In this document: one piece after another, positions 10,962 through 62,702 of the stretch
Position numbering within the stretch: the stretch's first letter is position 1
Layout: every line of letters begins with the position of its first letter
Assembly: GCA_019671135.1 (NCBI GenBank)
Contig: JAHRHY010000029.1
Span: forward strand, 213,858 to 277,857
From: Linnemannia hyalina
Taxonomy: Eukaryota > Mortierellomycota > Mortierellomycetes > Mortierellales > Mortierellaceae
Length of the DNA: 64,000 nucleotides
Direction: 5' to 3'
The notes under the pieces: model-generated
The model's database searches: none
Told to the model about the DNA's origin: nothing
The model's input: only the letters and a program-made list of their open reading frames with translations
Translations under genes and position numbers: made by a program

Positions 10962-11249
10962 GATCGCTGTGACCCAAGTCAAGAATCAAAGAAAGGGAAA
11001 TAGGGAAAGAAAAGAGCCAAAGAGTCAGTTTCGAATAAGAGTCAAAGAGTGCATGAAAGATGGCGTGCTTGAGTTGCAATTAATGGAAAGTAAAAACTTA
11101 CGATGAGGAAGGAGATGGTCGAATTGGTTTCGAGGATGCAATTGAAGAATGAAGTGTTTTAATGGTTTGGCGGTTTAGGAAGGACAAGACAACCAGGAAT
11201 TTTAAAATGAGAGGTCTGAGAATGGATGCCTGACTAGAGGAGAATGGGC
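10962..11249. other. Promoter side of the F-box gene and 3' flank of the Fanzor gene
   Basis: About 290 bases between two minus-strand genes. It should contain the upstream control region of the F-box gene. No clear TATA or other motif was recognised. Confidence 0.4.
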
Positions 11250-11275
11250 GCCTAAATTACGTCACCGAAGACGCA
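11250..11275 (-). repeat. Conserved 3'-flank motif of Fanzor family, copy 1
   Basis: About 80-100 bases downstream of the Fanzor stop codon. It is 24 of 26 bases identical to 16025-16050, which lies just past the stop of the deleted copy 1b. The core on the minus strand is GTGACGTAATTTAGGC. Confidence 0.7.
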
Positions 11276-11351
11276 TCTGTGCACCCACACCCTCCTATCT
11301 GCACTAATGTGTGTGGGCGAACCATCACACAGACTATGTATAGCAGCTGCT

Positions 11352-14300
11352 CTATTTATCCTCTTGAGCCACCTTCCCACGACGACCCCGACTTGAGCTG
11401 GAGGTCGAAGCTGCCCTCTTGCGCGATCCCTTTGGTCGATTGATGGCGGTGGTGGTGTTGCTGCTGGAGGAGGCGGCGGTGGAACTTGTAGCGGGTCCAG
11501 CGCCGGCTTTTGCCATCCATGGGAGAGAGCCGTCAGCGGCTACAGGGTGTAGATACTCAGGCCGCTCTTGCTTTTCCAGATATCCACGTACAATGTTCGC
11601 CATATTCTCGGCTGCCATAACGTCGCGATGATGATACACTTGGCACTCGGGGCAGTAGAAGCGGCGGAGAGTGACCTGGGCGACAAAGTGGCCGCAGTGA
11701 AGGCACTTCTTACTCGTGTAGTACTCGTTCAGACCGACGATAATGTAACCGAGAGAGCGGGCCTAATTCCAGAAAAAAAAAATCAAAGGAGCATACGTAT
11801 TAGTTTTTTTAACACACGGAGACCCATAAAGGGGTACTCTCCGCTAATGGACACTTTCAAGGCAATGGTTACCTTTTGAATGAAGTAGCTGAGAAAGGTC
11901 GAGTTGAGGGCTGACAGTCCGCTCGTGATAGAGAAGTTCCCAAGACCGACGCCAATGAGAACTGGATTTGATGGGTCATATCGCTCGCCAAGACTTCCTC
12001 CCACGATCCCAAGGAGCCGATTTGCGATAAGCTGGTACTCATAATCGCGGGCCCTCTCCATGTCCCACTTCTGCCGCTTGTACAGATTTCCCGAGCCAGC
12101 ATAAAACTTCTGGAGACACTCCTCCACCCGCTTCAGCTCCTGTACATAGTTGATCACGCTCGAGCCTTGGCCTTTGAGGGGCGGAAGTCGAGACTCGATG
12201 TCGGATATCGATACCTGCTGTCCATCCACAGAGACCTGCTCTTGCTTTGCGTCCTCAAGCCAGCGCCGGAATCTGAACGTAGGTTGGTAAACGGCTTTCT
12301 GTTTGACAGCCAGGTTCAGAAATGTTGTCCTGGACGAGAAGGTAGGTAACCCTTGTGACTGTGGCAACGGGATGGGGACTTTGGTCGATACGGAGGTAGT
12401 TGCATTAATCGATTGCTGATTGTCGGTGGCGTGGTAGTGGCGACGGTGGTGGTGGTGGTGGTGGTGGTGGTGGTGGTGGTGGTGGTGACGTCTTCCATAG
12501 ATGACTCGTTCGCATTATCCATGCCCTTAGACTGGCTCAACACGTCCTCTGCAAGATCCGCGAAGGCACCAATAACGCATACTTGTCCACCGTCCAATGT
12601 CAAAGTCTTGATCCTTTCGACAGGGACACCTGGCCAAAGCTTCTCGATATCCTCCTTGCAGGTTATCACACGCCGGATTTCTTGGAGATAGTAGTCTGTG
12701 CCTCCAACCGTAGACGTCAGCTTGGGTGGCAGCTTGGTAGGTTCCAACCGACGGTACCGTACTGATTGCAACTCACGGAGCTTGTAGGCCGGAAGTTGAA
12801 GCCGGAATCCGTCCGTGCGAATGGAGCCACGCAGGATGTATCCTTTTGTGGCGTAATTGATCGGATCGACCCACTTGTCCTGAACAGCTGTCAAATGCGA
12901 CTTGATCTGTTCTAAGGTGAGAAGCTTGATAGCCCCGCGATGACCGGCCTTCCTCCGCTGACGGCTCGTTTTAACCTGAGGCGCGACATCAGCAATGAAC
13001 TGCTTGATAATGATCCCGGGACCCTTGCCAGCGATCCAGCTCGTGATATCGAATAAGGTATTGACAGGAGATCCATCCTCTGCAACCAGATCCGTAAGTC
13101 GCGTCTTGAGCGATTCTCTCTTCCAGAAAAACGAAGCAAGCTCAGGCTCAGTGAACGACACGAATGGTAACTCGAACGAGGTGAGAGGGATGATCCGACG
13201 CCTGTTGCCAGTGATTCGATTTAGTTGAAGAAAGTTCTCAACAGCGGAGATGTCGTCCTGTATACCAATGTCAGCCTCTGGTGGCAATAAATGTTTCGCC
13301 ACCATAGCTGTGGCCTAAAAATGAAAAACAAGAGTGAGAATGTTAACTTTGTGATTTAAATTGAAATACATAATAAGTAGGTACTGATGCTTTGATTCAT
13401 ACCTGCTTGTGAAGGTCATAGGGGCCATGTCCATAGATCCGCTGTAATTCGACTGCGAGTTGTACTGAGATAGAGCGAACAAGCATGGAAGGGGTGAACG
13501 GCATAGTCTCGTTGAGGTCTCTCCTAGCCCGAATAGGGTGATGGAACCCGTGATCTGTCAACCAGTCAATGAGCTTGTTCACAACGACACCCACTCTTGT
13601 TTTACTCGGGTAGTTCCCGGAATAGAGATATGCCAGGAAAGGCCGCAGAAATTTTTGCTCGAGATTGCCCTTGTCGTCCAGGTCGGTGTTGTCCTCCTCC
13701 TTCTGCTCAACATCCTGTTGCTCCTTGTCGGCAGCATTGGGTTTGATACGCACACATAGATGGGTAAGGATTTCTCGCTCGTCCTTTGTGACAGCATCGC
13801 GCTTGGCTTTGCGACGCTCGACGTTGGTCATGGTCATTGGCGGGGAGAGCTTCTGCAACTCTGCCCTCTTCGTCTCCTCTGCGGCGTGCATCCTGACAGC
13901 CAATGTCTCAACAAACTCTCCGATCAGCCGCTGGGCATTCCGTTTGACAGTTGCTGCTGATTGGACAGCCTCCTGTAGGCAATCCACCACTTCCTGCTGC
14001 ACAATGTTAAGATTCAGTGGGATTTCCGGGTTTCCGAGTGTTGCTCCATCTCCTGATACACGTCCAACATTCGCCTCCAAGGTGCCAATTTCCAGCCATG
14101 CGGTAGTATGGTGCCAAGAAAGAGATCGCAATAATCCACTCTTGTCCTTGTCGGCGATCGGTTTCATGTTGGGTTGTGGTGGTTTGTTGGCCTTTGACGT
14201 CGTCTTTTTGGCTGGGGTGGGGTTGACAGTCTCCGGTCGTTCTTGGTAAAACTTCAGTTTGAATTGCTTAGCCTTGGGAGGTGGAGCATGGACAACCTTG

Positions 14301-15797
14301 CGGGTTCTCTCCTTGAACGAGAATCGTCCTCGGTTCCGCGGGATCCGTGTCCTTGATAAGGGTGGATGGCCGTCAGCATCTGGGGCAGACATCACAGAAG
14401 TAGACTGTTGAGATGGACTGGAATCAGAAGAAATTTGTTGTGAAGGACCACGCGCAGGTTGCGGTGTAGTGACGGTCTTTGTCTTGGAGATAGCAGCGGG
14501 TGACTCGACCGTCCGGTACCGGTTGAAGGTCTTTGGCGAGGGTAGCCGTACAATGTCATCCTTGGGCCTATTTATTACATACCAACAAAAGCACATGATG
14601 AGAACTGTAGTTCATAAATAACTCTCCGCAAAGTACAAAAATCCTCAAAAAATACATTGTACAATTACCTCTCTTTGACTCCTGCCGCTCGAATATTTTT
14701 TATGGATTGGTGCTTGATGCAAAGTTCGTTGAACCTGTGCTGCAGTACACGGAAGAGCTGCAAGGCTTGCGACTCTTGGACTAAAGGCCGGATTGGCTCT
14801 TGCTGTAAAAGAATGAACACCCGGATCGAGTTCTCGAATGTCTCCTCTTTCGTGTTTTTCACCACGACTTGGCCGTGGGTAAGGTAGGCAGTGACAATCT
14901 CTCGGGCGTCTATTTTAAAAAAAAAAAAAAAAAAAGTAATCAGAATGAGAACCAGCTTTGTAAAATATTTGGCTGAGAATGCCAAAAAAAAGAAGTCGCC
15001 ACTCAATTTCAACGCGATATTACCTGGTCTTGATCCAATCGATTTGATAATGCTGAAGTTGGTTACTGGCCCAAGCGAGTAGATGTTCTTGTGATAGTCA
15101 TTTCGAGATACTACCGCGAGCGCCGTCAGCTGCGTCCGAGAGATACCAAGAGTTGCGAGGACATCGGGAATCTTGTAAACGAGGATAAGGTTATTGGAGA
15201 CTGGACGCCAGAGGGTCGTGACTGATTGATACGCCATCATATCACTGTCCGAGATAATGACGTCAATGCCCTGAGCATCCATAGCAATAGCAAGATCAGC
15301 CTCCGTCCTGCAAACGATAACAGTCCAACCGCGGTGCCGCATGTAGTTGGCAAACTCCTGGCGACTCCTCAACGACCAGTGAAAAGACGACTTGAGTCCA
15401 GCCTTGACGTCAGTGAAGTGTCGTTTCCTGACCCTCAAATTGCTGTTCAGTCTCTCCTCGAAAACCTTGATGCTCTTTTCCGTCCGGTTCAGGGCCTTGT
15501 GTCGCTTTGCGTCTCGTGCCTTGGCTGTATCCATTTTTTCCTCTGCCTGATCGCGTCAATGTATAAACGCATGTTGAGTGGGTCGCCAAATCGTTTAATG
15601 TCGTTTTCCAAAATCCTGTGCGCATCATCGGGAGGCAAGTTCTGGTTCGAGTAGGCTTGTTGGATGACGGGAAAGCAGTTGGCCATCACATCAAAGCGAC
15701 GTGTGCCTGTTGTCAGGGAGGCTAGGACTGATTGGTATAGAACAGTAGGGTTGTAGCCCTTCTTGCGAATGAAAGGGTACCAGTCGAAGAGCCCCAT
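11352..15797 (-). CDS. XPG-like nuclease fused to Fanzor/TnpB-like RuvC nuclease (copy 1)
   Basis: Exons as read: 15797-15024, 14909-14669, 14567-13403, 13314-11873 and 11762-11352. The N-terminus starts MGLFDWYPFIRKKGYNP, as in XPG/FEN1 proteins, and keeps acidic active-site candidates: Asp in RRFDVMANCF, Asp in LYID, Glu/Asp in TEADLAIA (about 15303) and two Asp in ISDSDMMAY (15249, 15243). A helix-two-turn-helix region with SRNDYHKNIYSLGP follows. A low-complexity linker (FNRYRTVESP) leads to a Fanzor-type half: SIRTDGFRLQL, RuvC-I Asp in LTLDGGQVC (12592-12594), a zinc ribbon (CLHCG...CPEC) and the last Asp in HHRDVMAAEN (11622-11624). Two frame breaks exist: one base missing near 15550, and a shift within or near the (GGT)14 tract around 12445-12490. 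The gene is therefore a recent pseudogene, or carries assembly errors or an unseen intron. Confidence 0.75.
12445..12486. repeat. (GGT)14 microsatellite inside the Fanzor coding region
   Basis: Fourteen GGT units; on the minus strand the open frame reads them as 14 Thr. The coding frame upstream and downstream of this tract differ, so the frame change of the Fanzor gene lies in or close to it. Confidence 0.9.
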
Positions 15798-15945
15798 GGT
15801 GTTGGGGCTTGTGCTTTTGGGGTCGGAAGAAACGAATGTTGATGAGGATAGTCGGTTTGCTGAGGTAGTAAGAGTAGGAAAATGGTGAGGAAGAAACAGC
15901 TTTGTCATTTCATAGTAGTCCAGTAAAGTCTTGTGAGAGTTAATT

Positions 15946-15961
15946 TCGATCCATATTAGGA
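15946..15961 (-). promoter_or_regulatory. Shared upstream motif of XPG-Fanzor copies
   Basis: TCCTAATATGGATCGA on the minus strand lies about 150 bases before the ATG of copy 1. The same 16 bases recur at 38236-38251, about 130 bases before the start of copy 3. A 16-base match at equivalent places in two otherwise diverged copies suggests a promoter or leader element, though simple shared ancestry would also give it. Confidence 0.45.
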
Positions 15962-16024
15962 AAGATCACATAGATTCTTTCAGTCAACAAGAGAATTATG
16001 GCGTCCATTGTCCTGCTCCCGGAT

Positions 16025-16050
16025 GCCTAAATTACGTCACTGTAGACGCA
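16025..16050 (-). repeat. Conserved 3'-flank motif of Fanzor family, copy 1b
   Basis: Second occurrence of the 26-base motif at 11250-11275, here starting 11 bases past the stop of the deleted copy. Similarity also extends toward the coding end (CTATGTAGAG against CTATGTATAG). Confidence 0.7.
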
Positions 16051-16060
16051 ACCCAAGCAC

Positions 16061-16815
16061 CTACTGCCCCACAATCTTCACTATGTAGAGTGGGTGCAAC
16101 ATCAATAGTTTCGCTTCCTCCACAGCCTTGCGCTTCGACAACCGGGTCGGGGCCTGAGTGTCATCGATCGCCTTGCGCTTCCTGGACTGCCGAGGTTGAC
16201 TTGACTTGGGCTTGGCATCGGTGTTGGATGAGATGCTTTTGCTACTTCCAACTCCGTCTGCACGGGTGGAGGCTCGTGCTTGATTTTTCCTTGTCCGGGG
16301 TTTGACCGAATACCGACACCGATGTACGAGGGTTGTTGGGCGCTCTTGTTTTATGGTATCCATGGTATCCTTGTGGTCCACGGGTGGAGGTCGGTCGATA
16401 GTCCGGTATCTGTTGAAGTGCTGTGATGATTTTTGTCTCTGGGTAGACCTGTTCGACGAAGAACTATTTTCAAAAAAGATGACTATTAAAATCAACCGTG
16501 AGATATGGCATTTTCGATGGCTATACAAATTATTGCAATGTTGATCTGTACCTTGTTTGGCTCGCTCGACTGGTCATTTCCAGCTCGCTCTTTCTCTGGC
16601 TGTGGATCGACCAGGCCTCTGCAAAACGTGCCTTGACCTTCTCTACCGTCAGTGTACCCGGAACATCATAGCTGCCGTTTGTTGTAGGTGAACTGGTGTT
16701 TGCCTTCCACCGACAAAAACTCGGATCGACGAGGCAAAGTTTAGCTTGTCCTTGTTCTTGAATTCGACGCGGCTGTCGGTCAGATACACTTCCACCATGG
16801 ACGGCACATCCATTC
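16061..16815 (-). pseudogene. XPG-Fanzor family copy 1b, internally deleted
   Basis: An AG acceptor at 16816-16817 opens an exon beginning GMDVPSMVEVYLTDSRVEFK, with NFASSIRVFVGGRQTP further on. It is equivalent to the second exon of copy 1 (EIVTAYLTHGQVVVKN...NSIRVF). After an intron, FNRYRTIDRPPP matches the linker. The frame then runs straight into a Ser/Lys-rich tail (SQPRQSRKRKA) that resembles the very C-terminus of copy 1, and stops at 16061. The whole RuvC half is missing, so this is an internal deletion derivative, and in-frame stops interrupt the first exon. Its left edge abuts the decayed Fanzor half of copy 2 near 16850. Confidence 0.6.
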
Positions 16816-16849
16816 CTAATTAAAAAGATATATGAGAATTAAAACAAGC

Positions 16850-19800
16850 AGTAGTAAATCATCCACCAACAATCCCAAGCAGTCTCTCCGCGATGGTTTG
16901 ATACTCTGCTTGTCGGACCCGCGTCATATCCCAATGATACCTCTGATACCGATGGTCGTCTCCCTATAGACCCTTTTCAGCCGTTGCTCGACCTGCTCCA
17001 GCTCTCTCACATACTCACAACGCTCGCACCTTGTCCTCGAAGGGGTGGCGGACGGGTTCCGATGTAAACAATGGACTTCTCCTCGTCACCTTGTGGTGTA
17101 GCCATCTTTTTGTTCTCGAGCCACCTTCTGAAGCGAAATGATGGCTGATATACGGCCATCTGCTTCACCGCCAAGTTGCCAAGTTATAGTAGGCAGGTCT
17201 CGATAGGGTCAGGGGCGAATCCGTTACATGAGGTTGCGCGGAGGTGAAGGTGGAGGCTGATGCGGGCACTGGATCCACGGACGCTGACCCTTGGCTGGCG
17301 AGGCTGGTCGATTCCTGGTTGGTGGTGATGATTCCGTCCATGCTGGACCTCTCCTCAGCCTTCTTGCCATCCAAGTCATTGGGTATATGTGCGAACACTC
17401 CAACCACACACGCCTGGCCCCCATCCAAGGTTAAAATCTTCATCCTGTCCACGTCCTTTCCAGGCCAAAGCTCTTTGATGTCCTGCTCGCTCTTGATCAC
17501 ATTCCGAATTTCTTGAAGGAAACCGTTAACCCCTGCAACGGCTGTAGTGATTCTTGAGGGCATATCCTCCTCGGCCAGTCTTTTGAATAGAGCGTCTTGT
17601 CGTTCACGCAACTTGAGGGTCATAGCCTGGACCAGGAAACCGTCCGTTCGTATCGATCCTTGAGGGATGTAGCCGCCACGGTGATAGTCCTTTGGCTTTG
17701 TCTCTTCAACCAACTGTAAATGATCCCGAATCTGATCCAAAGAGAGCAGTTTGATGGCCCCGCGATGAACGGCCTTGCTCTTTTGACAGTTTGACAGCTC
17801 AACAGAATCAATGACGGAGATAAAGTTCTAGATGATAACCCCAGGCTCACTTCCCCCGATCCAGTCCTCGAGATCCTTAACAGATGCGAGGGCGGTATTG
17901 TCATCGTCCGAGAGGGCCAGCTCTCGCTCCGAAAATGTCACAAACGGTTGCTGCAAGGGGGTGGTGGGAGCGAGTCGCCAGCTGTTCGGTATGAGCTCGT
18001 TGAGGGTAAGGTAGTTTTCCGCGGCCGAGATGTTTTCCAGAATCCGGATATCGATGTGGGCCTCTAGTCGTCCCTTGTCCTTCAAGGTCTTGACCTATAG
18101 CGAAAAAGTTAAGAAGCATTAGCTATATATTTTGTAGCAGTGAACTTCAGCCCACTCTTGCTAATAGCCCATGTATCCTTACCTGATCATACAAAAGGTG
18201 GGTGCCATTTTTATACATCTTCTTCAGTTCCACTGAGAGCTGTCCAGCGACGGACCGCACCAAAGAGTTCGCCGTGAACAGCATTCTTTCGTTGAGCTCG
18301 TTTCGATTTCTACAGATGTCGAAGAGTTGAAGCCCTACCAAGAAGCTGATGAAGGTTCCTTGAGTACAAGTAGGTCAGGAAAGACTGAAGGAATTGGACG
18401 TGTTTGTTACCTTTTCCTTCTGTATCCAAGTCGTCTGAATCCTCCTGACTGTCGTCGACGTCGTCGTCACCACACTTGTTGACTTTGAGCTCAACCCTCT
18501 CACACAGATAGTCCAAAGGGTCTCGCTCGTCCATCGTCACCGCATCCCGCCGTACCTCCAGCCGCTCTGACTCCGACGTGGTCTTGCCTGCTTTCCTCAG
18601 TTCCTGTCGCTTAGACTCCTCCGCTGCCTTCATACGAGTCCGCAACTTCTCCAGAAACCCACCAATGAGGCCTTGACTTTGATACAGTTGGTCGCCTCGA
18701 GCTGTAGATCAGGCCGATCCGACAAGACTCGTTCGATATTTGTCTTCAAAGTACCGACTTCCAGCTATGATATGGGATGATGGTGCCAGCCGAGAGACCT
18801 CACGAAACTTTGCTTGCCCTTCTCAGCGTACGAGTTCGATCTCTCATCGGATGGCGGCTTTTTTCGAGTCTTCTTAGCCTTCCCATCCTTCTTTTTGCTG
18901 TCCTTCTTGGTGCTGCTGGTGGAAGTGTCGTCGGGGGACTCGGGAGCCTTCTTGGGCGGTTTCCAAACCAATTGCTTGGCCTTGGGTGAGGGCTCATGAG
19001 CCACGTTCCCTAGTCGCTCCTTGAAGGAAAATCGCTGACGATGTCGAGGTATCCGTGTTCTGGTTAACGGTGGATGACTCTGATCTTGCGGATCCGAAAA
19101 CGAGCTATAGGCTCCAAACTAGCAGTGGGTGGCTGTTGAGGGAAGGGTTCAGAGTCCCTGGAAACCGGTGCTGGGGATTCGATTGTCCGATACCGATTAA
19201 AAGATCTCGGAACTCGCAATCATGCGATAGTATCGTCGGAGGACCTATCAATTATTTTAAGAAAAATACAAACATGATGAGATGCACTTCATGTATATAG
19301 CTTGATCTAGATAGGACCAATAATAAATAGTTACCTAGGCTGAACTCCCCGCGTTTGACTCTGTTTATATTGGTCACATCGCGTACAGAAATCATGAAAT
19401 CGGCCTTGTAGTTGCCCGAACAGGATCTGAGAACCGGGCCGGGATCCATCACTTTCAACCCTGGTTTGTCGGAGATCCACAAAGACTCTGATCGAGATGG
19501 CAAAGTCCTGATTGTTGGTGTTTTTTGAGATAACCCGGATGTCAGATCGATAAGCCAAGACGATGTCCTTCGGGTCTATTAAGAAACGCAAGATATCAAT
19601 GAGCACAGTCAGGATTTCATATGAAAAGGTAGCCAAGAATATCAAGGGATAGCAATTTTCCATTTGATCATTACCTGCACGCTTGATAGACTTGATAATA
19701 GAAAAATTAGCCCCCGGGCCAAGGGAGTGAATATTCCTTTCATAGTTGTTGCGACTCACAACCGTCATAGCGGTCAACTGGGAACGGGTGATATCAAGAG

Positions 19801-20385
19801 CTTTCAAAAGATCTGGAACGGTGTACACGAGGATGAGACCTCCGGATACGGGACGCTATAGAGTTCGGATGGAGGCGTACGCAAGCATATCGGAGTCACC
19901 AGAGATGATAATGTCGTCTGGCTCCGCATCGCAACTTTGACAGTCCAGCCCGCGTCCTGCATGTGCTGTGCAAATTCCAGGCGACTTTCCTGAGACCAGT
20001 AAAAAGATGATGCCAGTCCCGACCCGTTTTCTAATGCGGAGACCGTTGTCCAGACAGGACTCGGGTGTGTCCAGGGCTGTGGCGGTGCGTTCTAGTGCTC
20101 TGTTCCGTACTTCTTCTCGCTCGGCGGCTGTGTCACTCTTTTCCACTGCCTGATAGCCGTCGATATAGAATGACATATCCAGCAGACCTCCTTCTCGAGC
20201 ATATGGTGCGCGACATCTGGAGGATTGTTGGAGTAACTGCTTCGAATGACACAGGTAGCATGTTCCGAGGACATCAAGTCTTCGACATCCGTTGGTAGCA
20301 ATTTTGGAGACGATGGACTGGTACAATAGAGCAGGGTTGTAGCCCTTGCGTCGTATGAATGGGAAACAAAAAGACAGACCAAAGT
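16850..20385 (-). pseudogene. XPG-Fanzor fusion, degenerate copy 2
   Basis: Same domain order and intron positions as copy 1. The start reads FGLSFCFPFIRRKGYNPALL with the ATG lost (about 20385). It continues with FYIDGYQAVEKSDTA, IIISGDSDMLAYASI, ITRSQLTAMTVVSRNNYERN, the exon PKDIVLAYRSDIRVISKN, the linker (18760-19200), ANSLVRSVAGQLSVELKKMY, GSIRTDGFLVQ (about 17640) and LTLDGGQACVVGVFAHI (about 17420). Frame changes and stops are frequent: a stop after YASIRTL, one in SLGWHHHPIS, one after GSEPGVII, and others. Similarity ends around ERLLGIVGG near 16860, so the zinc ribbon and last RuvC Asp are absent. It cannot be expressed as one protein. Confidence 0.7.
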
Positions 20386-21479
20386 GGTTGGCGCTGGCAC
20401 ATGTGTCGAAGGAAAGAGAGGTGTTGTTGTGTACGCGCACAACCTTAATCCCAAACACACTGACGGAACTCATTTATTTCCTATCTAGCAGGGAAATAAA
20501 GATGGCGTTTCTTTTTACTATCACGAACCCCTGCCATTGTGTGTCTTCCCTCTGATGTTCTCTATTCTATTCTAGCCATCTGCTCGGCATCTCATAATGG
20601 TAATCTATAAAGTGCAGGCGTAGGTCACGATGGAAGTCCTGTCATGTTAGGTCAAGCCTCCTTGAGATGGAGCGTGGCCAACGGATTCACATCTGTGCCG
20701 CGTTAGTCGGGGAGGAGAGTTTCAGTCTGTTGCCGCGTGCCCTTTGCGGTCGTGCCAGCAGATTGTTGCATTCTTGGCGAGACTTGAAAAGAGGAGGAGG
20801 GGGGATGGACACGCGTGGTCGTGACGGACTGTTGAAGCAAAGTATCTTGTTCTTCCTCGTTCCCCTATAATTACAGCTTTGTTTCTTTGTGAGCAACTGA
20901 GCATCCATAGTTGGTGATCGGTGTGATAGAAATGGCCCTAACGTCTATCTTTTTCCTTCTTTGTTATTGTGTTGGTCTCGTTCAATGCGAACATGCTGTG
21001 TCGTAGGCTAACTACTATGGGAGGTTTTGACAGGATCAAAGGCGTATTAGCATCAGAGTGGACAATGTCGAGCCTAGAAGTAAAGAGCAGGAGTCTAGTG
21101 ATGTGTCAGGATCAGTGCGTGTCAAGGAGTACATGCCGTGGCTCATGGTTGTTTTCTTTTTCAAACACCTTCTGACATACCATGCCCTACAGAAGCACGC
21201 CTTGCAACACTACGCCAATCTCGTATTAACTCCGCTATTGTTGACACTCGCGCCAAAGCCGACATTTTTCTCTTTTACTCTGGAAGCGAGAGGAGAGCCC
21301 ATCTGTTTTTTCACCTCCCTCCGACGTATTTGTTGACAAACAGTACAGTCACTTCCTCGGAGAAGCAAAGAAAATTTCCCGCTGCGCAGTCGAGTTTGAA
21401 GTCTAGGCCGTTTTGTTACAGTAAGATAAACATGTTCGTCATCTCTCACCATGCCCCCACCAACCCTCATGTACACTAG
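20386..21479. other. Intergenic stretch, no gene recognised
   Basis: About 1.1 kb with only short open frames of no recognisable content. The right end should be the promoter of the membrane protein gene. Confidence 0.5.
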
Positions 21480-36007: not shown

Positions 36008-36305
36008 CCGGGTTACAAACCAGATACAGTTTAACACAGAACAACGCCTCCGCGGCATATCTCTCCTCATCAGTAAGATAGCTTAATGGAATACACAGAT
36101 ACTAGCAGTGTTAAATTGAAGACATGAGCCAAATTCAAATCATGTAACTGTCAGGAAAAAAGAGATGAAACGTTATTAAGATGGAGATGTGAACTAAAAT
36201 TATGGTGTAAAATTGTCTCGATGTTTCTATTGATCACCTACTGTATGACCAAAGGTCGACGTCGATGAGAGAGTGATTTTACATGTAAAGAGCGGACACT
36301 GCTCC

Positions 36306-38108
36306 TCAGTCCTCCTCCTTCTCCCCTTCCTCCTTCTCCGCATCGATAGGGGGAGAAGTCCCATCGGTGGCGCCGCGCTGCAAAAGCAATCGTCGATTAG
36401 CGTCGCTGAGACCAGTAGTATTGGTTATCGCTGCTCCTGTGGCGGTGAAGATGTCAGGTCCTGCGCTCCAATGCAACTGCATCGACACGTTACTCGATCC
36501 GTTCTGCACTCTCCTTTTGAGACTCTGCTTGTTAGTCTCCTTGGATGCCCTCAAGCCAGTAGCTGATGGCGCCTGGTCCGACTTCCGCTTGCCTTTGCTA
36601 TCCGTAGTGTCAGTGGTGGAGGGGTCGTTGTTGGAGTCTGACATCTCCTTAAGTGCTTTCCACGTGAGTTGCTTGGCCCATGCAGGAGGCTCATGGCTCA
36701 CTTTTTCCTGATGTCGCTTGAAAGAGTACTGTTGGCTGTGTAGGGATGTCCGTGTCCTAGGCAATGCTGGATGGCCTTGGTTTTCGAGATCCGAAGAAGT
36801 AGAAGTGGGTTCCTGGGCGATGCCGGGCTGATGCTGTGAAGGGGTTCCAGAGGCCTTGGAGATCTGTCTTGGCGACTCCACAGACACAGTACGGTAGCGA
36901 TTCCACGACCTTGGCGCCCGCAGGCGTACAATCTCGTCACTGGTAGCTCTATTATTATTAATCGTATAAATGATGTAATGAGGTACAATTCACAGTCTTT
37001 GTAAACTATGAATAAAATTACCTCTGCGTGCGGACGCGTTTGAGCTCGTTGTGCCGAGTACATAGATCCTTGAAGTTAAGACGCAGTTGTCCATACAGGA
37101 TCTGAGCATCTGATGTGGAATCGACACTGTCAAGTTTTGTTTGCCGCTTGTCGATAAATACGCGAATAGAGTCTTCAAACTCCTTATTGTCCTTGTTTTT
37201 GGAAACGACTCGAGAGTTCGCTAGATAGCCGTGCACCACCTCCGTTGGGTCTATATAAGAAAAAGGAAAAGCATTAAACCCAGTTAGTACCCACTGTAAA
37301 GACTGCCAAGAATATCCAGACCTGGAAATAGAATCATATCCGATCGTTACCTAAGCTGTCGATGAACCAGATAATAGAGAAATTAGTGACCGTACCAAGA
37401 TAATGAATATTCTTGTTGGAGTCATTTCTTGAAACTATAGCAAGCGCGGTGAGCTGAGCGCGGGTGATGCCGAGGGCCAAGGGATGGAGTAGACCAGGGT
37501 CATGCCGTTTGAAACGGGGCGCCACAAAGTCACGATGGATTCATAGGCCAGCATGTCCGAGTCGCAGGTGATGATGTCGCCAGGGTTTGCGTCGATCGCG
37601 ATTGCCAAGTCAGCCTCTGTAGCCGCAACCCTGACTGTCCAGTGTCGTTCCGCCATATAGTCCGTGAAGCTCCTCCGGCTCTCCATCGACCAGTAGAAAG
37701 AGGAGACTATACCTGAGCGGACGTTCGCGTTTCTCGGGGGTTGGTTGTTGTCGATGCGTGATTCGAGAGTGGCCAAGCTTGTTGCTATTTGTTCCAGTGC
37801 TTTCTCTCGCCGTTTTTAGCGCTCGGCCGAGACAGCGGCCGCGGTCTCGGTCTTTTCCTTGGCCGGGTCCCCATCAATGTAAAGAGTAATGTCAGCGCCG
37901 TTCCGAACCGACTGACCTCCTTTTCCAGACTGCGGTGGGCGGCGTGTTGTGACATGTGGAGTAAGAGTTCCTGATGACTATAGCACGACCCAAGAACATC
38001 CAGTCGCCGTCGACTGCTGGTGATGATTGTCGCGAGGATTGATCAGTAAAGTTGGATATGTATGTAGTCCTTGCGTCGAATGAAAGGATAGCAGTTGAAT
38101 AGTCCCAT
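36306..38108 (-). pseudogene. XPG-Fanzor family copy 3, truncated after the linker
   Basis: The ATG at 38108 begins MGLFNCYPFIRRKDY, and a TAG soon follows. Later pieces match the family: LLYIDGDPAKEKTETA, VSSFYWSMESRRSFTDYMAE, AATEADLAIAIDANPGD, ITCDSDMLAYESIV, then after a frame break LGITRAQLTALAIVSRND. After an intron comes VVHGYLANSRVVSKNKDN-like sequence (37239-37018, exon 2 equivalent), and after another, ATSDEIVRLRAPRSWNRYRT (linker). The frame then ends after an acidic stretch at 36306. No RuvC half follows. Two introns are at the same places as in copies 1 and 2. Several stops make it non-functional. Confidence 0.65.
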
Positions 38109-51196: not shown

Positions 51197-51372
51197 TAAA
51201 ACACCTACGTTCATATAACATATATAGCATTTATACGTGTGTCCCCGGTGAATCTCATGCATATACATCATGATGATAATGGTACCAGCTTGGTTGACAG
51301 TACATGAATTTCCTGGGAATAATTCCCATAATACTACTTATGGAAGGTATATATATTGCACATTTTAAAAGT

Positions 51373-51765
51373 TTATTCCGATAGCTCAACAACATTGGCT
51401 GTATCTAATTCTTCCTCTTGATTTACCATAAGACCACTGGCAAATCCTTTGATCAAGGCATTTATTATATAAATCTCCCTCTTCTGCTGGGAAATAATTT
51501 GGTTCATCTTATCCATTTCTTTCTCTAATTTTCTGACACGTTTCTTTAACTTCTTATTCTCATACTGTAAATCATCATCGGATTGTTGCACATCCTCATC
51601 TTTCTTACATCTCCCAGATTTCACATGCTTTCCACCATTCTTTTTTGCCTGATAGCTCTCCTTGGAAGACTTTATCTTGCATTCCTTACATGTATTTCTG
51701 GAATCATCGTAGAAATCATATGAAGGCTTCTTTTGGTTACACCTGTTGCAAATCCTTTTTGGCAT
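51373..51765 (-). CDS. Zinc-ribbon coiled-coil protein of the transposon (copy A)
   Basis: 130 residues. The N-terminus MPKRICNRCNQKKPSYDFYD continues NTCKECK, giving two CX2C pairs of a small zinc ribbon similar to those at the start of endonuclease VII-like and some large-virus proteins. A basic patch and then a heptad-rich coiled coil (YENKKLKKRVRKLEKEMDKM) follow, with a hydrophobic and acidic tail. It is likely a DNA-binding dimer that helps recognise the element ends. Copies in elements 0 and C are nearly identical. It is transcribed away from the 90-residue gene. Confidence 0.7.
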   Translation of the reverse strand: MPKRICNRCNQKKPSYDFYDDSRNTCKECKIKSSKESYQAKKNGGKHVKSGRCKKDEDVQQSDDDLQYENKKLKKRVRKLEKEMDKMNQIISQQKREIYIINALIKGFASGLMVNQEEELDTANVVELSE

Positions 51766-51960
51766 ATTAGGCGGAATGGTGATCTCTTGATACTTGATAT
51801 ACCACGTTTTTTCCCGGGAATATTTCTCTCAATGTTTGTGTTTGAGGGCCATATACAACAATATCTAATATAGATGTCAAGTTGTATCTATTCAAGGGAG
51901 TAATTGACAAAGCAGTACATTATGGAACACGGATCTTAAAGTCTTAACTCCGTAATTATT

Positions 51961-52233
51961 ATGCCCAGGCCATCACGTTTAACTAAATCGCGCCAGCGGG
52001 AAGTTGTTGCCGATTTTATCTATGCAAAGAATCTGGAATTGTGTATGTTTATCTATTTGGATGAATTTCTGGACTATCATCGTAATCTCTTTCCACAAGA
52101 CGCCACTACATTTGGGACAAACGGCATAAAGAAACTATTGGAGGCATCCTATCAACTCATCCGTGAGAAAATACGTAATGCGGGATTGCTTACAAATAAG
52201 GATGCTGGTGAATACATGCTTAGAAGAAACTGA
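51961..52233 (+). CDS. 90-residue helical protein of the transposon (copy A)
   Basis: MPRPSRLTKSRQREVVADFI is followed by helical segments (LELCMFIYLDEFLDYHRNLF, IKKLLEASYQLIREKIRNAG). The copy in element 0 (62385-62657) has about 81 percent identical residues over the same length. Conservation in two copies shows it is a real gene. Its small size, basic start and helices would suit a DNA-binding accessory protein, but no family is recognised. Confidence 0.65.
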   Translation: MPRPSRLTKSRQREVVADFIYAKNLELCMFIYLDEFLDYHRNLFPQDATTFGTNGIKKLLEASYQLIREKIRNAGLLTNKDAGEYMLRRN

Positions 52234-52279
52234 CAACCTAAATCTTACACTTTTTAAAACCTTAAGTATACCTTTTATT

Positions 52280-53983
52280 ATGTCGCTAACAAAAGAATCT
52301 ATTGTAAATACAGCTTTCAACGAAGTTTCCCACTTGCTGTCAAATGTGGGTAGCCTAAAGTCTGCTCCACCTGGAAGTATAGAGAGAAAAGGGTTTACTA
52401 AGTTTTCGAAGCTCTTCTGCGATTCCATCATCTTTTGGGGTATATATAATTTTGCTGACAATTCCACTAAAGGTACGGCAATTGGAAAGTACATTGCGGA
52501 ACTGCGCGATGCATTTAACCACATGGATTTAGATGTGGAATCCGTAAAGTTTTTGGATGCTAGGGCTGTTAAAATGGATGACAACTATTTTTCTGCACGC
52601 ATGGTCAAACGCCATAGAAGGCTGTTTGTTGGAAAGGAATACCAGCATGGCTTTATTACCATTAAGGTTTCTCTAGATTTTTCACGAGCTAAGATTGTTG
52701 TGCCAATTTTGGACGGCATGTTGCCTATCTTGAACGAGAGTGGCATTGCTTTACATGACATAGACTTCGCCTATGATTGTACGCGTATTACCACACGGTT
52801 TTATGTAGAGAAATTACTAAAAGAAGGTAATAATACGGAAATTGTAGATGATTTAGGAAGAGTTGGACATCATTGCATTTCATGGAGAAGTTTAGAAGAT
52901 GATAGAAAGAATATCCGATATAAGGTGTATAACAAATTTGTTCAGATTTTGGAAAGTGCCGAGGTGCGAAAGAGCCTTGGTTCACGTTTGGAGGATTTGG
53001 TGGAGAAAGAAACAGCATTTGGACGACGAGTTAAAAAATATAAAAAGCATGGTTATAGTCGTATCGAGCTGACGTTTGAAGGTTCATCTTTGAGATCTCT
53101 TCAGTCATATCAAGACGAAATGGACAAGACAAAGAATCTCTTGAAGAAATGTAAAACATTTAAATGTTCCTTTGAGATGCAGTGGGAGGAACGTGCAAAA
53201 TGCATTACCTCGATGGTGGCTGTACATTTTCCACATGAGAAACTGTTTGCTTATTGTCACTGGTGGAATTCGGTAACCTCTAAGAAGTATGGATATATGT
53301 GGCAAAACTTTAAGAACCCCGAGCTTATTACACTTTTGCTGGCTAACTATTCCTTTAACGATAGACCTATATACTTTGTGGAAGGACATGTAAAAGAGGT
53401 AAATGGGAAAGAGAAAGTTATTTTGGGCGAAATAAGGACATTTAAGCGCGAGCCTGGATGTACTGCCATTACACTAGTTGCTGGCTCGCAAAAAGGAATG
53501 TTTCCTTCAAGGGATGCATCTCCTAATGTCATTCGTAAATTTAGCAAAGTTGGAATTGTGGAAGTTGACAACATCTCTATTGCCTGGCCAAAGCGTGTTC
53601 ATAACAGGTATAGTGCCCCACTTGCAGATATCTTCGAATATGATGAAGATACAGTAGACACAAATGTATTACATCTGAAAACTATTCATGTTTCGATGTA
53701 TACTGCAGCCCACCAAATTTTAGAGCCTGATGAAGAGTATACCATTGTGGCGGCCGGTCTCAAAGAATTTCGTTCTGAACGTCGTTGGCATTTTATTACA
53801 GCATGTGGCATAAAGGTGCGCGAAGGAAAATCGTTGGCAAAGATTTGGAGACCATGGCGTGTGGAGCATCTTCAAGGTCTACAGAGAATTGGTAGTGTGA
53901 AAGGTGTGCCGTTCATGACATTTCGAGCGATTAGAGTGGTTAATTCACATAATATACTTGATATGAAGTGCGAGCGCGTTTGA
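52280..53983 (+). CDS. Candidate Rep_trans-like replication initiator (567 residues)
   Basis: The start ATG at 52280 is chosen because the second copy begins at the same codon (62703); upstream codons of the open frame are not conserved. Around residues 158-170 lies ALHDIDFAYDCTRITTR, then at 213-220 YKVYNKFVQ and at 258-269 HGYSRIELTFEG. This order (D-x-D, Y-x-K, R-x-E) is what rolling-circle initiators of the Rep_trans/RstA type show, with the Tyr as the nicking residue. No HUH pair or helicase motif is visible. The C-terminal 200 residues are of unknown fold. Many differences from the second copy are silent, so the gene has been under selection. The Rep call is an inference from motifs only. 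Confidence 0.5.
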   Translation: MSLTKESIVNTAFNEVSHLLSNVGSLKSAPPGSIERKGFTKFSKLFCDSIIFWGIYNFADNSTKGTAIGKYIAELRDAFNHMDLDVESVKFLDARAVKMDDNYFSARMVKRHRRLFVGKEYQHGFITIKVSLDFSRAKIVVPILDGMLPILNESGIALHDIDFAYDCTRITTRFYVEKLLKEGNNTEIVDDLGRVGHHCISWRSLEDDRKNIRYKVYNKFVQILESAEVRKSLGSRLEDLVEKETAFGRRVKKYKKHGYSRIELTFEGSSLRSLQSYQDEMDKTKNLLKKCKTFKCSFEMQWEERAKCITSMVAVHFPHEKLFAYCHWWNSVTSKKYGYMWQNFKNPELITLLLANYSFNDRPIYFVEGHVKEVNGKEKVILGEIRTFKREPGCTAITLVAGSQKGMFPSRDASPNVIRKFSKVGIVEVDNISIAWPKRVHNRYSAPLADIFEYDEDTVDTNVLHLKTIHVSMYTAAHQILEPDEEYTIVAAGLKEFRSERRWHFITACGIKVREGKSLAKIWRPWRVEHLQGLQRIGSVKGVPFMTFRAIRVVNSHNILDMKCERV

Positions 53984-54018: not shown

Positions 54019-55299
54019 TTATAGACTGGTATTATCGTCTTCGTGGTTTGACATTTCCTCGTCATCATCCTTATTTGACGTTTGTTCATCATCATCATCT
54101 GAAGCAACATCTATTCCTACAAATTTCTCTTGCATTCTTTGTAACTCAAGACCGTTTTCCAGTTTGTTTTGTACTGTAATGGTTTGTGTTAACTCTGGGA
54201 CAAGTTGCCTTTCTCGTGGATAATCTACTCCTTCTTCCATCCATCCACGATGATGTGGCTGCTCTTCGATGTCCACTGCTTTAACAAAGTTGCGAATATT
54301 TAGCAACAAAAGACAAAGGCGGAATGTAAGATTAAACTCCTTTTTGGATCCAACTCTTACAATCTCCTTGTTATTAAACTTGGCGAATGTTTTCATGAGA
54401 TCACCAAAGACAGCCTCTGACGTAGATCGAAATCCACCAAACATAGCATTAAAGTTGGATTCCTCTTCGTGGAGTTGCTGTAGTCGTTTCTTACGAATGG
54501 GAAAACAGAAGTTACGCTCGTCCAACTTTTCTTTTTCCACAATATCGCCAATGTATTGTGTATATCCTCCATCGAGAGCAATACAGTCCATGTTGTTGAT
54601 CTTCTTACCAATGCCCATCTCTTGTAACATTTTCCCATCGTTGTTATCACGACATGACGCTGATTTGGATACAAAGAGAACCATTCCATTGGCATCGATG
54701 GCCACTTGCGTTCTCAAACCCGATTTCTTTAGCTTATAAGAATACATTGCTGCTTTATCTTCCCCATATGTTGCTCGAGAGTCATGACCATCCAAGTAGA
54801 GAGTTACATGCTTGAACATTGGGGGATTTTTCCAATTGGCTGTTCGAATACGAATTTCCAGCGAAGAGAACATAGATGCAAAACAGCGTGTAATCTCCTT
54901 CTCAAATAATGCACGTTCCACCTTGACGAATGTGCTGTATATCAAATGGAATGTGGACTTTGGCATATACTGTGCCATGGAATCCATAGTCTCTCCAGCG
55001 ACGAAAAAGTACAGAAATGCAATTCCTTTCTCAAGTGCGTTATATGGACCAGGGAAATAGTGTTTACTCCAGATGGTAGATAGAAAGAAAAACACTGGTA
55101 TGGCTCCAAGTCTCTTCATCAACACCTTTTTCATATCCTGTATTCTTGCAATTGGTTTCAACTCTGAACGATGAAATGTCATGACCTTTGGGCACATTGG
55201 CCACGGTTCATCAAGAAATCCCCATTCGTTCTCCAACAGATTATCAAGCAGCCGTGCAAGTTTCTTTGGCGTAGGGTTTACGACGGTATCAGTCTCCAT
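54019..55299 (-). CDS. Harbinger-like DDE transposase
   Basis: 426 residues from ATG 55299. A TTTTTGCAG acceptor lies just upstream, so a short leader exon is possible. The catalytic triad is visible: Asp170 in VTLYLDGHDSR, Asp243 in CIALDGGYTQYI, and Glu295 in FRSTSEAVFGDLMKTFAKF. The spacing and flanking words (D-GGY; N-F...R-S-E-FG-K-F) are those of DDE_Tnp_4/PIF-Harbinger enzymes, which cut and paste DNA with three-base target duplications, in line with the ATA here. The acidic tail (DDDDEQTSNKDDDEEMSNHE) is unusual. The frame is intact, so this copy may be active. It converges on the Rep-like gene. Confidence 0.8.
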   Translation of the reverse strand: METDTVVNPTPKKLARLLDNLLENEWGFLDEPWPMCPKVMTFHRSELKPIARIQDMKKVLMKRLGAIPVFFFLSTIWSKHYFPGPYNALEKGIAFLYFFVAGETMDSMAQYMPKSTFHLIYSTFVKVERALFEKEITRCFASMFSSLEIRIRTANWKNPPMFKHVTLYLDGHDSRATYGEDKAAMYSYKLKKSGLRTQVAIDANGMVLFVSKSASCRDNNDGKMLQEMGIGKKINNMDCIALDGGYTQYIGDIVEKEKLDERNFCFPIRKKRLQQLHEEESNFNAMFGGFRSTSEAVFGDLMKTFAKFNNKEIVRVGSKKEFNLTFRLCLLLLNIRNFVKAVDIEEQPHHRGWMEEGVDYPRERQLVPELTQTITVQNKLENGLELQRMQEKFVGIDVASDDDDEQTSNKDDDEEMSNHEDDNTSL

Positions 55300-55384
55300 A
55301 ATGTCGTTTTCTGCAAAAATAGGGAGTATACACACGTAATTATGTCAATTATTCCCTAGAATTCCCCAGATATGTCATATTAAG

Positions 55385-56211: not shown

Positions 56212-56418
56212 TGCAACAGGCGAAGACTGGGACAGAGAAGTATAGAACGGGGACGAGAGTTGAAGCAGTGATGATTGATGTTATTACTATGGTACAACTA
56301 AATATATATACAAAGTCGCCAACTAGGTTTCTAGGTGTAGTGTCATAGTGAGTCAGAGATGATAGAGAGTGACAAGGAATGACTAACTAGAGAGCAATGA
56401 TAAACCTAATATGTTGCA
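56212..56418 (-). repeat. 3' LTR
   Basis: 207 bases, identical to 61564-61770, with internal TATATATA usable as a promoter core. Confidence 0.95.
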
Positions 56419-56443
56419 CCTTCCCCTCTTAAAAAAAAATCCG

Positions 56444-59400
56444 CTAAGTCCTAAGGCCATGGTCGCGCTTGTACTTGTTGAGGATGTCCTTACAGTGTGC
56501 CAGTTCACTCTCTGGTTCCCATGTCCAGTCCTCGCGCGGGTATCCTTGCCATTGTAGAAGGTACTCCATGTTGTTGTTAACCTTCCTATGATCTGCAATG
56601 GCCTCGACCTCATACTCTTCCTCGTCTTCAACGATAACCGGTGGTGGCCGTGCTGGTGTTCTTGGTCCTAGCGTCGCAGGTGATGGTTGGTAGCGTCGGA
56701 ATCGGTCGACGTGGAAGACGGGGTGAATCTTCATGGACGGTGGAAGATCAAGGCGGAAGGAGACCGGGGACAGCTGTTCAACAATGGTGTGGGGGCCGGC
56801 AAAGCGAGCCAAGAGTTTCTGCGACGTGCGGGTGCGGTCCGAGGGTAAGGTGATATTCTCAAGGTTAAGGAGAACGTGGTCACCAACCTTGAAATCATGC
56901 TCTCGCCGATGGATGTCGGCGTTGGCTGCTTGACGTTCTTGGGCGGCAGCAAGGGACTCCTTAGCGAGGGTGAGGGCTTCGCTTCGAGATTGCACGAACT
57001 CGTTAACCGATGGGTTGGGGCCGGGAGTAGGGGTCAACAATGACATGGGCATGTTGGGATGGGCTCCGGAGTTCAAGAAGAACGGGGAGACTCCAGTGGA
57101 GGCATTGGTGGCGTTGTTCGTGGCAAATTCGGCGGCGGAAAGTAAGAGGTCCCAGTTAGACTGCCGTTGGTCGACAAAGTTACGGAGCATGGTGATAAGG
57201 GTGCGGTTGGCACGCTCGGTCTGGCCATCGGTCTGAGGGTGGAAGGCAGTCGACATGGCAAGGTGGACGTCCATCAGACGGCTCAATTCTTTCCAAAAGC
57301 GGCTCGTGAACTTGGTATCGCGGTCGGAGACAATGGTGGTTGGCATGCCGTGCAAGCGGAAAACATGGTCGAAAAAAATGCGTGCAACTTGCGAGGCGGA
57401 GTCGGTGGTGTGGCAGGGGGCAAAGTGCACTTGCTTTGTGAGTTTGTCAACAAAGACCGTAATGGAGTCAAAGCCGCGTGGGGTCTTGGGTAGGGGGCCG
57501 ACAAAGTCCATTGTCACCGTTTGCCAGGGTCGATCGGGAATGGGTAGGGGCTGGAGGAGGCCAGCAGGTGGTTGGTTGCTGGGCTTAGTCCTTTGGCACG
57601 ACTCACAGGTCTGCACATACAGCCGGGTGTCCTTCGCCATAGATGGCCAGAAGAACCGCGAGTGGAGATGACCGTACGTCTTCTCGAAACCGAAGTGACC
57701 AGCTATAGCGGAGTCGTGTGCATCGTGAAGAAGAGAAAGCCGAAGGTCAGAGTTCGAGGGGATACAAACAAGTAAAAGATCATTACGTTGAATGCAAAGA
57801 ACACCATCAACAAGAGAGTAATTAGACGGTGGACTTCCCTGGAGGCAGCTTTCATAGATCGGTTTGAGGCGGTGATCCTCTTTGTAACCATCCATCAGGC
57901 GCTGCCGGAGCCTGGGGTCGAGCTGTACTGAGAGTGTGTTAATCTCTCTATGGTCCGGTCGGCGAGACAGGGCATCTGGGACAATGTTGTCGGCTCCTTT
58001 CTTGTACTTGAAGGTGAAGTTGTATTCCTGCAACAGTTCCATCCAGCGGGCCTGACGGCGGGTGAGTTTGGGTTGAGTGGGGAAGTGTTGGAGGGTGGCA
58101 TGGTCGGTGTATACGATGAAGTGGGATCCGTCCAGATAGTAGCGCCATGTCTTCAATGCATGTACAACAGCCAACAGTTCCTGTTCGTGTGTTGGGTAGT
58201 TGCGTTCGGCAGAGTTCAGCTTGCGGGAGGTGAAGGCGACGGGGCGCGACTCGCCATGCTCATCGGTCTGAAAGAGAACGGCACCGAGAGCAAAGCCGGA
58301 GGCATCGGTTTCGACGGTTGTTAGAAGGTCGGGGTCGAAGATACGTAGAACAGGTGCTTTACTGATGGCCTCCTTCAGAGTCGTAAACGCTACTTCCTGC
58401 TCCTGAGACCAAGAGAAAGGAACGCCTTCACCTAAGAGAGCGGTCAACGGTAGGGCGATCGAGGCAAAGTTAGCGATGTACTGATGATAGAACTGTGCAA
58501 GACCAACAAACTGCTGAACATCTTTCTGCTTCTGGGGACGGGGCCATTCACGGATGGCACGAACGAGACCGCCGCTCGTATGGATACCGTCCTTGGAGAT
58601 GACGTGGCCGAGGAACTCGGTCTCTTTCTGCATAAAGGAGCACTTGCTCAACTTGGCGTAGAGACCGTACTTGCGGAGGAGCGTGAGGACGGATCGGAGA
58701 TGTTGTAGATGTTCGGCCTCGGTGCGCGAGTAGATAAGAATGTCGTCGAGGTAAACAACAACCCACTTGTCGAGAACAGGGTCTAATACTCGTAGCATCA
58801 TATTGGAGAAGGACGCCGGTGCATTCGTTAACCCGAAAGGGACCACATTAAATTCGAAATGGCCGTAGCGGCAACGGAAGGCTGTCTTGTGTGTGTCCTC
58901 TTCTGCTATACGTTGCTGATGGTAACCGGAGAGGAGGTCAAGTTTGGTAAAGTAGCGTGCCCCGCGGAAACGGTCGATAAGTTCATCAATGCGGGGAAGG
59001 GGGTGTCTGTTCTTTTTTGTAATCCGGTTTAACCCTCTGTAATCAACACACATACGCAAGGAACCATCCTTCTTTTTCACAAACAATACAGGGGCACCAT
59101 AAGGGGAGGTAGAGGGTTTGATAAAGCCTTTGCCAAGTAGGTCGTCGAGTTGCTTCCTTAGTTCATCCAATTCAGCAATCGAGAGACGTATAACAGGGCG
59201 AAAGGGGGGATCAGCGCTCGGATCAGTTTCGATCTTCATTGCATCGCCTCTGTCAGGGGGAAGGCCAGAGGGGAGGGAGGAAGGGAAAACGTCGGGGAAC
59301 TCGTTGTGGACGATGTTGTGAATGTCGGGTGAGAGTGGAGGGGAGGTCGGTTTGTTGTCATTACTGTTGTTGTCGTTGGTCTTTTTAGCGATGTTGACGA

Positions 59401-60352: not shown

Positions 60353-60360
60353 GTCCTGGA

Positions 60361-61359: not shown

Positions 61360-61563
61360 GACTGGTAGTGCAGAGAGAAGTGCGGAGAGGTCAAAAATGT
61401 CCAGAGTGTAAGAGGGTACGAAGGAAAATAGGGGCAGGGAATGAAATTCAGGGCTGGTGTGCAGAGAGAGCTGGGACGAGGGAAAATTAAAGTAAAACGC
61501 GGGCAGTGAAAACGAGGAGGGAAAAATCAAGAGGTCAGTGGAACGAGGGAACCTTTGCTACCA

Positions 61564-61770
61564 TGCAACAGGCGAAGACTGGGACAGAGAAGTATAGAAC
61601 GGGGACGAGAGTTGAAGCAGTGATGATTGATGTTATTACTATGGTACAACTAAATATATATACAAAGTCGCCAACTAGGTTTCTAGGTGTAGTGTCATAG
61701 TGAGTCAGAGATGATAGAGAGTGACAAGGAATGACTAACTAGAGAGCAATGATAAACCTAATATGTTGCA
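61564..61770 (-). repeat. 5' LTR
   Basis: 207 bases, identical to the other LTR, next to the tRNA primer site. Confidence 0.95.
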
Positions 61771-61795
61771 ACAGTATATTGCACATTTTAAAAGT

Positions 61796-62188: not shown

Positions 62189-62384
62189 ATTAGGCGGAAT
62201 GGTGATCTCTTGATACTTGATATACCACGTTTTTTCCCGGGAATATTTCTCTCAATGTTTGTGTTTGAGGGTATACACAACCATATCTAATATAAATGTC
62301 AAGTTGTTTCTATTTAAGGGAGTAATTGACAAATAAGTATATAGGGGAATGAGCATCTGGACGTCTTATCGCCGCAAATATATC

Positions 62385-62657: not shown

Positions 62658-62702
62658 CAACCTAAATTATAGACTTTTTAAAACCTAAGTATACCTTTTA
62701 TT

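Follow-up and report, generated by a model that had tools for sequence, protein, structure and literature searches.

Fanzor nucleases are related to Cas12, an enzyme of CRISPR systems. Fanzor1 nucleases such as SpuFz1, GtFz1 and PpFz1 have been described by the motif D-X(125,275)-[TS][TS]XX-C4 zinc finger-X(5,50)-RD (PMC3627910), with an alternative glutamate six residues ahead of the zinc finger and a RuvC-I motif DPG that is near-exclusive, though not strict (PMC10711439). The related TnpB of IS200/IS605 is smaller, has its glutamate in the canonical position (PMC10711439) and lacks an XPG domain. In early-diverging fungi, the MuDr-like Fanzor1 elements of Mucorales (ROr-4, PBl-3 and MCi-4) have inverted ends and no transposase gene (PMC3627910). 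Here we analyse a window of 64,000 nt from the soil fungus Linnemannia hyalina (GenBank assembly GCA_019671135.1, contig JAHRHY010000029.1, positions 213,858 to 277,857 of the forward strand), in which a mobile element carries a gene that joins a FEN1/EXO1-type nuclease of the XPG family to a Fanzor1-type nuclease. All positions are counted from the first letter of the window.

That the two nucleases are encoded as one gene and one protein is well supported. The preliminary description of this DNA had proposed such a fusion, and the parts it named, from the XPG-type start with its acidic residues and helix-two-turn-helix (H2TH) region through a linker to SIRTDG, the RuvC-I Asp, the zinc ribbon and HRD, are all present on the minus strand. 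The gene is laid out as follows.

15797 to 11352, minus strand: fused gene, window copy, five exons
15024..15797, minus strand: exon 1, XPG-family nuclease domain, frame broken at about 15560-15490 in the window copy; boundaries from the intact L039 model
14669..14909, minus strand: exon 2, last part of the XPG half, by comparison with the L039 model
13403..14567, minus strand: exon 3, linker; the fold match of protein P0024 makes it probable that the Fanzor part begins here
11873..13314, minus strand: exon 4, SIRTDG motif, RuvC-I and RuvC-II region, frame broken in an ACC/CAC repeat at about 12500-12430
11352..11762, minus strand: exon 5, C4 zinc ribbon (PF07282) preceded by the alternative catalytic Glu and followed by the RuvC-III Asp and the stop codon

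The XPG-type start reads MGLFDWYPFIRKKGY at 15797 and the H2TH region SRNDYHKNIYSLGP from 15108, both on the minus strand. In the Fanzor half we located SIRTDG at 12825-12808, the RuvC-I motif LTLDGGQ at 12603-12583, LNEYYTSKKC..C at 11732-11694, YCPEC at 11657-11643 and HHRD at 11633-11622; exon 5 matches PF07282 with an E-value of 7.9e-13. All seven acidic residues of the XPG active site are present in the window copy, though in broken frames, and one residue next to the DSD pair is missing. The intron preceding the linker lies at the same place in three copies of the gene within the window (donors 14668, 19334 and, by eye, about 37021), which bears out the earlier observation that one common intron joins the halves.

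Locus L039 is a near-identical intact copy of the window element (98.3-98.4% nucleotide identity); its gene encodes 1335 aa in five exons separated by four GT-AG introns, and this protein and KI688_002751 of Linnemannia hyalina are the same from end to end. In a divergent family represented by L059, whose XPG alignment is 26% identical to L039, a single unbroken frame of 1385 aa runs from the XPG start through the linker and RuvC-I to RuvC-II, so that the zinc-ribbon exon alone follows after an intron. The deposited protein P0023 joins a frame of the L059 type to its zinc-ribbon exon in the same way. We found 22 related proteins in seven genera, namely Linnemannia, Haplosporangium, Podila, Gryganskiella, Entomortierella and Benniella, all of the Mortierellaceae, together with Mortierella. 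Fusions are thus deposited from other Mortierellaceae, and a full protein from XPG to zinc ribbon exists in five of the seven genera, the exceptions being Entomortierella and Benniella. An alignment search of the protein database gave four proteins among the candidates sharing most words, and no relative was found on viral contigs with query A4.

The same arrangement was seen in a genome scan, in which 52 of 91 TNB matches were preceded, at 1.9-4.5 kb and on the same strand, by an XPG match. The two controls, a match downstream and a match on the other strand, each occurred once among the 91, and a chance pairing of XPG and TNB is therefore excluded. We fetched 21 loci, 20 of them picked mostly for XPG-TNB pairs and the last being L059; all but L040 and L047, which are cut short, are colinear with protein P0001 from XPG to TNB (19/21). 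For the TNB matches lacking an XPG partner we inspected the family of L061 (C4:126900-131200) and one deletion product. L061, although without an XPG profile match, has a very divergent XPG half (23-33% identity, best E-value 3e-12). It keeps DPG and the alternative Glu, yet by eye its XPG half reads QSD where others have E-x-D; judged from these residues, this half may be losing its activity.

Searches with a single profile of the fusion matched its N-terminal part to XPG/RAD2 enzymes and its C-terminal part to TnpB/Cas12 enzymes, so that the C-terminal half did find its relatives as the preliminary description had anticipated. In a fold comparison of one full-length deposited protein, residues 2-348 matched FEN1/EXO1 and residues 441-1147 matched Fanzor1 structures; the model predicts an XPG-type fold including the H2TH region, followed by the REC, WED, RuvC and TNB parts of the Fanzor1 fold. 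The XPG half is about 12-18% identical to the solved members of the EXO1, FEN1 and XPG (RAD2) 5' nucleases listed among the fold matches, and differs from them in residing on a mobile element and in being tied to a Fanzor. Its Pfam scores are spread around the XPG_I cut-off of 24.9 bits: P0005 lies above it with 28.1, P0004 and P0021 (both 23.5) and P0003 (19.4) lie below, and P0017 and P0023 gave no XPG_I match at E<=0.01. Nine loci were chosen for a readable exon 1 (A3), and seven of these match XPG_I at E<=0.1. In all nine, the seven metal-binding carboxylates D36, D81, E166, D168, D185, D187 and D235 are kept. The gateway known from FEN1 is also recognizable, with Lys at +7 from the second Asp in 8/9 loci and Arg at +14 as well as Gly2 in 9/9; the roles of the corresponding Lys93, Arg100 and Gly2 in FEN1 have been described (PMC5490271).

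For the Fanzor half, the C-terminal profile found TnpB, Cas12 and the Fanzor2 of mimivirus, with no Fanzor1 chain among the matches at E<=1. P0001 fits the Fanzor1 motif, with D969 followed by 245 residues, TSKK, C4, 5 residues and RD. Of 25 aligned proteins, 15 extend to the alternative glutamate (NEYYTSKKC), and 13 of these have E there. RuvC-I varies: the window's family and the relatives closer to it have DGG, DAG or DLG, and P0023, P0024, P0025 and L061 have DPG. The window's family has VGLGNF, without the acid of GDGNF in L059; we dropped the idea of a dead RuvC, since the alternative Glu on which Fanzors rely, ahead of the zinc finger, is present. Compared with the known Fanzor1 proteins, the fusion adds an N-terminal XPG-family nuclease domain of about 340 residues, has DGG as RuvC-I in the window's family and reaches about 1200-1400 aa in its fuller members, while the TNB/RuvC core is shared with TnpB.

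Both halves are under purifying selection where this could be measured. Between families, synonymous sites are near saturation and protein changes are fewer. The ratios of non-synonymous to synonymous change (dN/dS), which are rough at such distances, were finite in 7 of 21 pairs for the XPG half (0.13-0.24) and in 6 of 21 for the RuvC exon (0.12-0.32 and, in one of the six, the value of 1.22 taken up below). For L039-L044 they were 0.13 (XPG) and 0.12 (RuvC), and for L049-L051 0.14 and 0.12, respectively. Pairwise identities of the two halves are correlated (Mantel r 0.91 over the 17 of 25 rows that were covered well enough, 0/5000 permutations), and the trees of both halves, drawn for 16 of the 25 proteins, have the deep clade P0023-P0025 in common with a support of 100/100. 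At shallow nodes, the XPG and RuvC halves of P0001, P0003, P0004, P0005 and P0006 group differently with high support. In all, the two trees have just 4 of 13 splits in common, so copies have probably swapped halves by recombination at shallow levels.

The fused gene belongs to a large mobile family. A block of 4.8 kb is common to the window copy and L039, bounded by inverted ends of about GG(C/G)TGCAGGACAATGG(A/G)CGCC; in the window copy the left end is GGGAGCAGGACAATGGACGCC and the right end GGCGCCCATTCTCCTCTAGTC. The following features were assigned.

11232..16020, minus strand: mobile element carrying the fused gene (copy 1), 4789 bp with imperfect inverted repeats at its termini; homology to L039 stops at about these points
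16000..16020, minus strand: left terminal inverted repeat
11232..11252, minus strand: right terminal inverted repeat, overlapping the 3' arm of the terminal hairpin
16021..16028, minus strand: target-site duplication, left copy AGGCATCC
11224..11231, minus strand: target-site duplication, right copy AGGCATCC
11232..11351, minus strand: candidate scaffold of a guide RNA (omega/reRNA), filling the stretch between stop codon and right end, with a conserved hairpin in the last ~70 nt
16029..20473, minus strand: copy 2, decayed element that extends from the XPG half to RuvC-II
36300..38107, minus strand: copy 3, truncated to the XPG half and the beginning of the linker

The target duplication at the window copy is 8 bp long, as the ninth base differs. 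Matching target bases number 8 or 9 at L044 (ATTTGCAT(G)) and 8 to 10 at L041/L046 (TCCCTCCA(GG)), and no duplication was found at the ends of L039 and L045. Frames of at least 150 aa inside the element are those of the fused gene and one antisense frame of 207 aa. The element resembles ROr-4, PBl-3 and MCi-4, which also combine a Fanzor1 with inverted ends and lack a transposase gene in early-diverging fungi; those elements have 9-bp duplications, in contrast to the 8 bp at the window copy, and an XPG domain is not mentioned in the covered parts of PMC3627910. Copy 1 is inserted within the right-end motif of copy 2, which it splits. Other elements are likewise nested in or near terminal motifs of their own family: besides copy 1 (window 11224-16045), L047 adjoins an inverted right end, and L045 possibly belongs here. 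Shortened derivatives were also seen. L002 (C1, ~79140-79910) is an internally deleted derivative; in its roughly 0.77 kb it keeps both ends, the zinc-ribbon exon and the hairpin region of the right end, but residues 1195-1335 alone and thus no XPG half. L060 (C1:239080-240650) is a 1.47-kb foldback of two head-to-head right ends with the hairpin motif and no obvious protein, and on C48 (1973123/1974571) outward pairs of the right-end motif stand about 1.46 kb apart, as in L060.

The right end itself is conserved. Among loci with about 35-61% identity in their XPG halves, the last 30-40 nt (CTTCGGTGACGTAATTNNNGCGCCCATTGTCC) are nearly invariant, and a 17-base core had 77 genome matches with at most two mismatches, compared with 3 for the reversed pattern; the motif was not found in L059 and L061. 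Element ends fold well (z -2.4 to -5.8, 8 tested). All 14 sequences aligned show, within their last 80 nt, a pairing of the conserved 3' arm with an upstream arm, and at variable positions of the hairpin standard pairs are kept in several cases. In an arm-swap test on nine representatives, leaving out five near-identical copies, 13 of 20000 permutations matched or beat the real total energy. The covariation score was 0.187, compared with 0.150 in shuffles (4/500), and cells changed on both sides numbered 18, compared with 10.8 (2/500). On the long alignment RNAalifold gave a consensus of only 9 pairs; in its place we relied on the shorter alignment and on the swap test. A search of Rfam with 11000-16100 gave 0 matches. 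As Yoon et al. place the inverted ends in the predicted Fanzor1 guide-RNA scaffold, we take the hairpin as a candidate scaffold, although it may have a purely DNA-level role.

We suggest that the element's gene provides a guided cut and its follow-up in one chain, a reading to which we give a probability of roughly 55%. The Fanzor half would be led by an RNA from the right end of the element to a matching site and cut it. The 5' nuclease half would meet the 5' ends at once and trim them, and the loss of the 5' ends would make exact rejoining harder and leave 3' strands open to recombination. Recombination with a copy bearing the element would then restore the element at the cut site. Repair would in this way be shifted from end joining to homologous recombination, as with the engineered EXO1-Cas9. 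We infer that both nucleases are active and that the XPG half acts on Fanzor-made ends; the earlier suggestion of guided cutting coupled to flap trimming is thereby refined to a trimming or resection of 5' ends that would favour recombinational repair. The FEN1/EXO1-type nucleases and T5 exonuclease are members of one enzyme superfamily. Joined to Cas9, EXO1 raised homology-directed repair and lowered end joining, the best EXO1 editor carrying the exonuclease C-terminally (PMC11107001). T5 exonuclease joined to Cas12a, which in T5exo-ErCas12a is N-terminal as in the fusion described here, raised editing without a notable rise in large deletions (PMC8945719), a warning that the natural fusion may act otherwise. 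SpuFz1 consistently leaves 5' overhangs (PMC10432273), and TnpB has been reported as a drive device in bacterial plasmids (PMC11870625). More tentatively, the element could be a homing, drive-like parasite whose natural two-nuclease editor makes each guided cut a recombination event, with the fusion as the standard form of Fanzor in the phylum.

Several observations speak against the proposal. The window copy is broken at the two places given above, and several of the fetched copies have decayed. In the 25-protein alignment, D36 is replaced by K and S in 2/19, the fifth acid (D185) by N in 1/24 and the last (D235) by T in 1/23, and P0001 scores only 20.1 bits with XPG_I. On the Fanzor side, RuvC-I is DGG in the window's family where DPG is near-exclusive; the model of the full-length protein is weak (pLDDT 59.3, pTM 0.45), and its match to Fanzor comes with a high root-mean-square deviation of about 10 A over 483. 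Known Fanzor ends are mixed for GtFz1, blunt for NlovFz2 and 3' for MmeFz2 (PMC10432273). In the near-identical pair L049-L050 the RuvC dN/dS is 1.22, from very few changes; with dS near saturation the ratios are rough in any case, and 14 of 21 XPG and 15 of 21 RuvC pairs gave none. Contrary to expectation, the trees of the halves agree in only 4 of 13 splits. At the hairpin, a family's own arms ranked first in no more than 5 of the 9 cases, and in L049 they came last. Of the five covariation measures, two were no higher than in shuffles (pairs changed on both sides 7, compared with 7.2; further pair types 28, compared with 26.4). Moreover, the 3' arm doubles as an inverted repeat, and its conservation may therefore serve a transposase.

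It is rather unlikely that the XPG half has no role in DNA cutting and instead trims the 5' end of the transcript or guide RNA, freeing the right-end hairpin. XRN1 and XRN2 are among the fold matches, the XPG fold resembling 5'-3' exoribonucleases, and the candidate RNA lies directly behind the stop codon of the gene, so that 5' processing would be needed. Just as improbable to us is a service to transposition, in which the XPG half would process flaps or hairpins at the inverted ends and the Fanzor half would be an independent retention device. The inverted ends and the 8-bp target duplication fit this, and beyond the 207-aa antisense frame all frames of the element of at least 150 aa are those of the fused gene, so the protein may aid movement; yet derivatives with both ends and without an XPG half, the 0.77-kb product and the foldback L060, suggest a transposase acting in trans. 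We give less weight still to an XPG half that merely binds branched DNA and helps the Fanzor find or hold R-loops or broken ends, without being a nuclease in vivo. P0008 has N for one acid and the L061 family shows QSD by eye, as noted above, but binding alone would not require the seven acids that all nine readable loci keep. Finally, although introns separate the halves in the window's family, we rule out two adjacent genes mistakenly joined by gene prediction, as fusions are deposited from several genera, XPG-TNB spacing and strand are constant genome-wide and L059 has a single frame from the XPG start through RuvC-II.

Engineers have fused EXO1 and T5 exonuclease to Cas9 and Cas12a to alter repair, and nature appears to have made a similar joining; those fusions are man-made, whereas the Mortierellaceae fusion is natural, occurs over several genera and appears to have kept both halves through deep divergence. 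It adds a second catalytic domain to the Fanzor architecture, beside the cyclophilin-binding insertion of PpFz1 (PMC11423790). Should the fusion prove active, it would represent an RNA-guided nuclease that determines how its own cuts are repaired. It would then also be a test case for the persistence of Fanzor-bearing elements in eukaryotes and a ready scaffold for editing tools. We found no published description of an XPG-Fanzor fusion in the open-licence literature searched, and an earlier mention elsewhere is possible.

Further elements lie in the right part of the window. A DDE_Tnp_4 transposase at 54019-55344 adjoins a two-gene unit at 51352-53983, which encodes a cysteine-bearing protein of 151 aa and a protein of 617 aa, both without a Pfam match. 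A Ty3-type retrotransposon with a chromodomain and identical stretches of 207 nt at both ends occupies 56212-61770, between two copies of another repeat. Parts of the two-gene unit recur 10.4 kb away, at 61775-63299.

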